This document shows positions 30,901-33,900 of a stretch of 64,000 nt of DNA, one piece after another. The position numbers and the translations under genes were made by a program. The stretch's first letter is position 1; every line of letters begins with the position of its first letter. Source of the DNA: Hoplostethus atlanticus. Lineage: Eukaryota > Chordata > Actinopteri > Trachichthyiformes > Trachichthyidae. The stretch spans positions 4,645,001 through 4,709,000 of the forward strand of contig JAXDDX010000003.1 in assembly GCA_034670405.1 (NCBI GenBank). Reading direction: 5' to 3'. The notes beneath the pieces are model-generated. The model saw nothing but the letters and a program-made list of their open reading frames with translations. It was not told where the DNA came from and ran no database searches.

Positions 30901-33900
30901 CAAACGTTTTCTCCCTCCAGGACCATAGGAAGAAGAACGAGATTTAATGCCTCATGCTGCAGACTGTTGTGTTTATACACACAAATAGGACGTGATAACC
31001 TGATAAGACGGATATGCCAGGCGAAGGGAAAGCTCGGTTCGTGTGAGGTTGTTGTCCGGGTACCAGGCACCTTATCGGACGCCCTTTGCGGTGAAAGTAA
31101 ACTACGTTTGTTGATGCACGCAGGACTGTTACTGTAATCCATCAGAGAGAACACCCTGGAATATGTTCCTCTGTATGGTTCTCTGTTTTGTATTATTGCT
31201 CCCAGCACCATGACGACTATCCTCTTTCCTCCCCTGAGTGGAATGTACCACAAGGGAGATGCTGTCCTTATCCTGTGGTGCCAGTGGCCGTACCCTCCCT
31301 GTCATACGCCGGTGCCACTCTGGCAGCCCCCTTTCGCCACCCACTGTGCTCTCCTGCCCCCACATGGCCAAGCTAGAGCCCCTCTAGTCACAAGCGCCTC
31401 CTCCTCGCCGGATCGCTGGCATCCGGGCAGTCACTCGGGAACACTGCAGGCAAATACATCTGCGATGCCTCCAGTGAGCTGGGCTCCGTCCAGGCTGAGG
31501 CTGTCCTCTCGGTTGGTAAGCCCCGGTGATTTACTAGTCCATTTACTTCCAGGTGTTCCTCTCTAATGGACTGACCTTTTGCCGGGAAGGACCTGGCAAC
31601 ATCTCTCCGTCCAGGTGTAGCTGCACTCAAGATGTATTAGTCATCTCCATCAGATGGTCCTAATGGCCTCCTCTCTCGTCTCAGAGCCCTGCCCATGCCT
31701 AGGCCCGTGACTCAGAGCTGGGATAGGGTGAGAGGAGTGGAGGGCAGAGAGAGGGAACGAGGACTGGATGTTGTGCGGGGGTCTGATTCTCTCCGGTATT
31801 TTAATGGTCGGTGTGTGGAATGTGTGGCAGCTGGCTGCGGTCCCAGGACCAGGTCTAGTGTTACCAGCTCCGGGCCTGTTTGTTTTGTAAAGTGAAGCGG
31901 TGAACGCGCACACCAAAAAAACACCCCCCGAAACTGGACCCGGGACGCTGCCGTGCCCCTGTGGCGAGCCCCGCCGCTCCAACCTCTTTATTCACTTGTT
32001 TAGGTTTTAATATTCAATTATGGCGCTCTTTTGCCTTCTGCAGCTCGGCTCAGAGGCAAGTGGTCCCCGCTCTCTCTTCCCGGGCCGTGCACAGTGTCCA
32101 AACGTCTGCGAAAGAATTCCACCCAGCCTCTTGCCAAACCAGTGTCAGCCATAATAACGCTCCCAGCTTGCATAATTTCCCCAGGTGGACTGGTCTGGCT
32201 CTGGTGTGCTTTTAATGAAAAAAACAAACAAAGCGTGATTATGTACCGCGGTGGAGATCCAGGTTTTTCTTGTTATTTTATGTAGATTGAAAGGCTTGTT
32301 CCCAATGTAAAACTTTCCAGCGCTGCTGGCCGGCCCGTCCTCTGTGGACACATAGTGCCACCTCTGTTAGTCACAGCAGAATAACACTGATGTCGTTTCT
32401 GCAGGTTTTCATCACCGTATTGTGCTGGATATCCAAGTCAGTGTGACCTGGATCCATGTTCATTTTCAAGGCGCCTTGGCAAACGAAATGAAGCCATGCC
32501 ATCTTATGCCGAAAATAGAATCTGCAGAGTATTTTTTTATTTTATTTGCCTGAAGCTGATCCACTTCCTCGCCCTGACAGAGCCTCAGTTGGACTCCACT
32601 GCCGGCGTGCTGCTGGAGGCGTTGCCGTCGCTCCACCCCATGCAGAGTGACGAGGGGGAGGAGCACTTCCTAAACGAGGAGGAGGGGCTAGGGGACGCCA
32701 TCGGACCGCCCACCGACAGAAGCGGTGACCGACCCACTCCGGAGGCACCGATCATCACCAGCCCCCCTCAGACCCACAAGCCTGACATGTATGACCTGGA
32801 GTGGAGGGCGGGGCATGACGGGGGCAGTCCAATCAATGCCTACTTTGTCAAATACCGTAAGGTGAGTCGGAGGGAAGTATGGTAACCCTCTCACTGACGG
32901 GTTAACACTGTCCTACCTCTTTGTGTAGCCATTGTCTAATAATCTTAGTTTTACCGCTCCCTGGAGCTCTTTGTCCAAACCAACTGTGAACTCTCTGTAA
33001 TATGCTCATTAAAGTGACTGAAGGCTTGGTCATTTCCTCTTTAAAAGCCTGTGTTTGCTTCAGTAATAAGCTCACTTTGACTGTAAAACTGTACCAATAC
33101 TAGTTAAGATTGCATTGGCAAAGTTTCGCTGGCCTGCTGGAAAATGTGACATTGAGTTCTCACAAGGCTGTTCCACGTCTTTATTCAGACTCGGAAAGAG
33201 TTGTAGCTTTGGAGAATCATAGACTAACAGATGATTTGTTTGTCTGCGGGGTCTTTGTCTTCGTCAGGTGGATGAAATGGGAACGGTGGTGGGCAACTGG
33301 CACACCGTCCGCGTCCCTGGCAGCGAGAAGACGCTGCGCCTGTCGGAGCTGGAGTCCTCCAGCCTCTACGAGGTGCTGATGGTGGCTCGCAGCGCAGCAG
33401 GGCAGGGCCAGCCAGCCATGCTCACCTTCCGCACCGGCAAGGGTCAGTACAACCACAATAATACAATAGAAGAAGAATAGTACTGGCTTGTAGGGATTCA
33501 GTGTCTTGCTCAAGGGCACTTCAGCAAGGTGGATGCTTGCTATGATGAGGCTTGGACCCAGGCCTTCCAGTTGAAGCATGGTCTTCCTGCTCAGTATACC
33601 ACACTACTACTACTACTACTACTACTACTAGGGAACAAATCCAAAAAGTATTTAGACTAGTTAACACATAACTAGAAGAAAATAAGTTGAAGAAATCTCA
33701 TGGAAAAAGGAAAACAGACACACACACTCAACACATGCACCACCACAACCTTTACTGGACAACGTTAAAGCCCAAGGGCTCTTCAGGTCGAACCTTGTAA
33801 CGTTGTCCAGTAAAGTTGTGTTGGTGCATGTGTTGAGTGTGTTGGTCCGATAGCTAACTCGTACCAACAAGAACAACCATGACAGTTCTAAAAAAACAAA

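Follow-up and report, generated by a model that had tools for sequence, protein, structure and literature searches.

Does the cdon gene of this fish still encode its fifth Ig domain, or has it lost the domain that sets Cdon apart from BOC? We considered this question for the plus-strand cdon gene at 27849-41909 of the window, that is, the whole stretch of 64,000 nt of Hoplostethus atlanticus DNA that was analysed (G000:C3:4645001-4709000). Passages of PMC4102123 assign five Ig domains to Cdon and four to BOC, together with Patched binding to FNIII-1/2 and Hedgehog binding to FNIII-3; passages of PMC4561423 likewise describe five Ig domains in Cdon. A sequence-only reading of the locus had proposed that the Ig5 exon is broken, either through a fault in a short patch of the assembly or through loss of the domain.

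Exons located by splice sites and reading frame form a model in which 18 coding exons are intact and total 3,369 nt, encoding 1,122 aa without an internal stop. Every internal junction has canonical splice sites, and the model agrees with the earlier claim that all coding exons other than Ig5 are intact and in phase (Table 1). Pfam recognised four Ig_3 and three fn3 stretches in the product that skips Ig5, and the spliced model also contains a transmembrane segment, whose helix was identified by eye, and a long tail. With Ig5 excluded, 16 of the 17 acceptors score between 2.5 and 9.1 and that of the last exon -3.6, on a simple matrix that ranks sites only roughly. An Rfam search of the window returned no matches. 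Apart from the coding exons, an imperfect inverted repeat, perhaps a small mobile element, was seen by eye in a cdon intron at about 39065-39160 (ccagtatttacctcaccatctcctatag and a near complement), and a second apparent one, also by eye, in the intron at 33740-33830 (aacctttactggacaacgtt ... aacgttgtccagtaaagtt). Tail to tail with cdon lies a small two-exon gene on the minus strand (46240-45473), which reads as a signal peptide followed by a single V-set-like domain (V-set E 3.5e-5, slightly under the curated cut-off); its protein reads MTPYFCLLLCSLAVPLQ, then GLEIHDPEEVEYIHLQ..DVEDD and a stop.

Table 1. Exons of cdon, lesions of the Ig5 exon and a candidate residual exon (positions in the window)
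Feature	Position	Strand	Basis
First coding exon, signal peptide	27849..27921	+	spliced model
Ig1 exon	28329..28607	+	spliced model and alignment
Ig2 first exon	29134..29280	+	spliced model and alignment
Ig2 second exon	29389..29532	+	spliced model and alignment
Ig3 exon	29630..29914	+	spliced model and alignment
Ig4 exon, phase 1 end (..QS/G)	30003..30272	+	spliced model and alignment
Degenerate Ig5 exon (310 nt) with preserved acceptor (cag) and donor (gtaagc)	31206..31515	+	frame-aware alignment, Pfam I-set/Ig_3
TGA met by the incoming frame when splicing uses the acceptor before 31206	31211..31213	+	frame reading
Probable net -2 frame change	31261..31263	+	frame-aware alignment, 4/7 settings
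TAG stop in the frame of ...IRAVTREH	31385..31387	+	sequence and frame-aware alignment
Net +1 frame change, IRAVTREH / AGKYICDAS boundary	31445..31446	+	frame-aware alignment
Open in-frame stretch reaching the old donor, 66 nt, acceptor -2.5	31450..31515	+	AG-site survey
Linker and FNIII-1 first exon, phase 1 start	32581..32861	+	spliced model and alignment
FNIII-1 second exon	33268..33442	+	spliced model and alignment
Linker exon	34157..34273	+	spliced model and alignment
FNIII-2 first exon	34959..35168	+	spliced model and alignment
FNIII-2 second exon	35745..35926	+	spliced model and alignment
FNIII-3 first exon	36437..36542	+	spliced model and alignment
FNIII-3 second exon	38216..38338	+	spliced model and alignment
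Transmembrane exon	38618..38809	+	spliced model
Cytoplasmic exon 1	39356..39654	+	spliced model
Cytoplasmic exon 2	39838..39917	+	spliced model
Cytoplasmic exon 3	40632..40882	+	spliced model
Last coding exon with stop	41755..41909	+	spliced model

Between the end of the Ig4 exon (30272) and the start of the FNIII-1 exon (32581) lies an exon whose length is indivisible by three. Its homology to CDON Ig5 had been recognised from the letters and is borne out, well above chance, by a frame-aware score of 127 against an approximate human CDON Ig5 reference; 60 mononucleotide shuffles reached no more than 38. When the pieces of the exon were joined with X at the breaks, Pfam matched them to I-set (E 7.7e-5) and Ig_3 (E 1e-4), in each case short of the curated cut-off; for comparison, the intact Ig4 exon reached 5.3e-17. 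The exon had been thought to begin at 31239 behind a good acceptor. That acceptor is weak (0.7 on the simple matrix), and the start is likely 31206, where the acceptor scores 4.5; this value and that of the donor (7.5) both fall inside the range of cdon's own sites.

Disabling changes within an otherwise intact gene mark this exon as a probable pseudo-exon. Both the TAG at 31385 and the extra base at about 31445 reported before were found again: the net +1 change was recovered under all seven frame-shift penalties, and the TAG was retained at penalties of at least 14 (5/7) and swapped for three extra frame changes at 8 and 10. A less certain -2 change at 31261 appeared at penalties 8 to 18 (4/7) and was absent at 22 to 30. 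The best alignment free of frame changes scored 75, and the homology is spanned by no single frame. The core Trp is indeed absent, with PVIRR in place of the PVIRWYD of the human CDON reference; that it was replaced, as had been stated, is a matter of alignment, since the aligner set WYD opposite a gap and loss would read equally. The earlier list of lesions had overlooked the 5′ TGA: read in the incoming frame from 31206, the exon meets a stop at its third codon.

The lesions are confined to this one exon, as originally claimed, and nothing breaks the frame in the other 3,369 nt of cdon. A control alignment covered 14 of the 19 exons, Ig5 among them, with five omitted as the human reference used ends at FNIII-3; for the signal exon the alignment was short and meaningless, and none of the 12 other, usefully aligned ectodomain exons showed a stop or frame change. 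The chance that three random lesions would all fall within Ig5's 310 of 3,679 nt is 6.0e-4, and 5.0e-5 for four, both calculated post hoc and treating as independent lesions that are not strictly so. Ig5 is identical to human at 48 of 96 positions (50 per cent), and the exons of Ig1 to Ig4 range from 33 to 57 per cent. Since the remnant resembles human CDON as closely as the intact Ig exons do, the loss looks young; an identity no lower than that of its neighbours means that the decay is recent or else not real, and it would also fit an assembly fault or a very recent allele.

The assembly (632.8 Mb, 1,161 contigs) was searched for other copies and replacements. As a second copy or haplotype of the Ig5 exon, the DNA search matched only the exon itself, and a protein search with E up to 1 returned its own two pieces and one weak, stop-containing match elsewhere (E 0.243). 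A second cdon gene was likewise rejected: of 333 candidates, 150 were scored and yielded 49 matches, the best three of which belong to the cdon gene of the window, with a BOC-like set on C12 ranking next. Within the intron, 263 open phase 1-1 candidates for a replacement Ig exon were considered; of the two that lie away from Ig5 and have fair sites, neither matched an Ig domain (one weak unrelated match, one none). Relatives were also sought in two collections, neither of them vertebrate, with 7 pattern matches in viral_contigs and 56 in genome_contigs, none of which was confirmed.

We consider it probable, at roughly 0.6, that in this lineage the Ig5 exon of cdon has degenerated into a pseudo-exon, omitted from the working transcript. 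After decay of the exon, Ig4 would be spliced straight to FNIII-1 with the junction Q-S-E-P in frame; skipping keeps the frame because the end of Ig4 and the start of FNIII-1 are both in phase 1. The predicted product is a Cdon of 1,122 aa comprising four Ig domains, three FNIII domains, the transmembrane helix and the full tail. Hedgehog binding by FNIII-3 and Patched binding by FNIII-1/2 would be retained and the role of Ig5 lost. Since the FNIII parts are intact, the Hedgehog work of the protein would be expected to continue. Counting against skipping, both splice sites of the exon score as usable and inclusion could occur.

If the exon were indeed still included, a stop two codons beyond Ig4 would yield a secreted Ig1-4 fragment of 401 aa with the C-terminus ..QSAP, or decay of the message, and this copy of cdon would be weakened or null, perhaps with tissue-dependent skipping. 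The acceptor and donor, intact by score, would allow this, but the 12 downstream exons (2,171 nt) are free of stops and frame breaks, which argues that translation still passes the broken exon, and constant inclusion would not long preserve them, nor would they be expected to stay open in a gene that had lost function as long ago as Ig5 began to decay; we regard this outcome as quite improbable. Only one of the listed AG sites 5′ of the old donor, that preceding 31450, yields an open in-frame exon. The resulting mini-exon, inserted in frame between Ig4 and FNIII-1, would cover the best-kept part of the old exon, its 3′ end, with 15 of 23 positions identical to the human reference. Yet its acceptor is weak and it would expose half an Ig fold, and conservation of the F and G strands is usual for Ig domains anyway, so that use of this remnant seems very improbable indeed.

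An error of assembly or consensus in the patch, with an intact Ig5 exon in the animal itself, is unlikely, though the restriction of the lesions to one exon, the preserved splice sites and the undecayed protein similarity would all fit it. Single-base indels are typical long-read errors, whereas several kinds of change are found here, including an in-frame stop and the missing Trp. Furthermore, the window contains no N, the assembly holds no alternative copy of the exon, 48 of its 49 Ig/FNIII-like matches have no internal stop, and it includes exons that stay open for 2004, 1700, 1317 and 1094 codons. Of the two possibilities that the sequence-only reading had left side by side, the mixed lesions, the single copy and the in-frame skip thus lean towards a real loss of Ig5, with a small share of probability remaining for a fault.

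Judged from its sequence, the gene is a cdon gene and not a canonical five-Ig CDON; it is filed in this way because the skipped product has four Ig_3 stretches and Ig5 is open in no single frame. With vertebrate CDON (CDO; five Ig, three FNIII) it shares, in frame, the signal peptide, Ig1-4, FNIII-1 to -3, the transmembrane helix and the tail, and differs in an Ig5 exon that is unable to encode the whole domain. The predicted skipped product has the same domain count as BOC (four Ig, three FNIII). However, BOC is a separate gene (L017, G000:C12:7384500-7394400), and assignment of the window gene to BOC was rejected in view of this BOC-like gene elsewhere and of FNIII-3, which scores nearer to CDON (199.6 bits to PDB 3d1m) than to BOC (183.7 bits to 3n1g). 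In the BOC-like gene, the gap between the Ig4-like and FNIII-1-like parts is 155 nt, which leaves no room for an Ig5-type exon.

Proteins are known to lose domains when symmetric exons decay. The Ig5 exon has the properties of such a class 1-1 exon, namely phase 1 on both sides and a frame-neutral skip, but differs in that its remnant is still readable and its splice sites are kept, with skipping predicted rather than observed. The decay of an exon is an ordinary mechanism; the Ig5 of Cdon is an unusual target. For zebrafish cdon, passages of PMC4102123 indicate that skipping of exon 8 shifts the frame and skipping of exon 11 or 14 does not. Placing the primers given there by eye, exon 8 corresponds to FNIII-1 and exon 7 to Ig5 or Ig4, according to whether the numbering includes a 5′ UTR exon. 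In the literature searched, judged by titles and abstract openings, no description of a four-Ig Cdon was recognised.

Loss of the co-receptor CDON has been linked to holoprosencephaly. If the decay of its exon is real, the species would offer a naturally occurring knock-out of Ig5 in the Hedgehog co-receptor Cdon, and the fifth Ig domain, which distinguishes CDON from BOC, would be dispensable in a living vertebrate. Work on N-cadherin binding bears on which partner would be lost with Ig5; passages mapping this binding to Ig5 were not found in the portions of the literature examined. We suggest only tentatively that this is a fish lineage with a four-Ig, BOC-like Cdon that may have kept Hedgehog and Patched binding and dropped an Ig5-dependent share of adhesion. 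A real loss would help to tell the Hedgehog role of Cdon apart from its role in adhesion and would provide a natural experiment on the function of Ig5.
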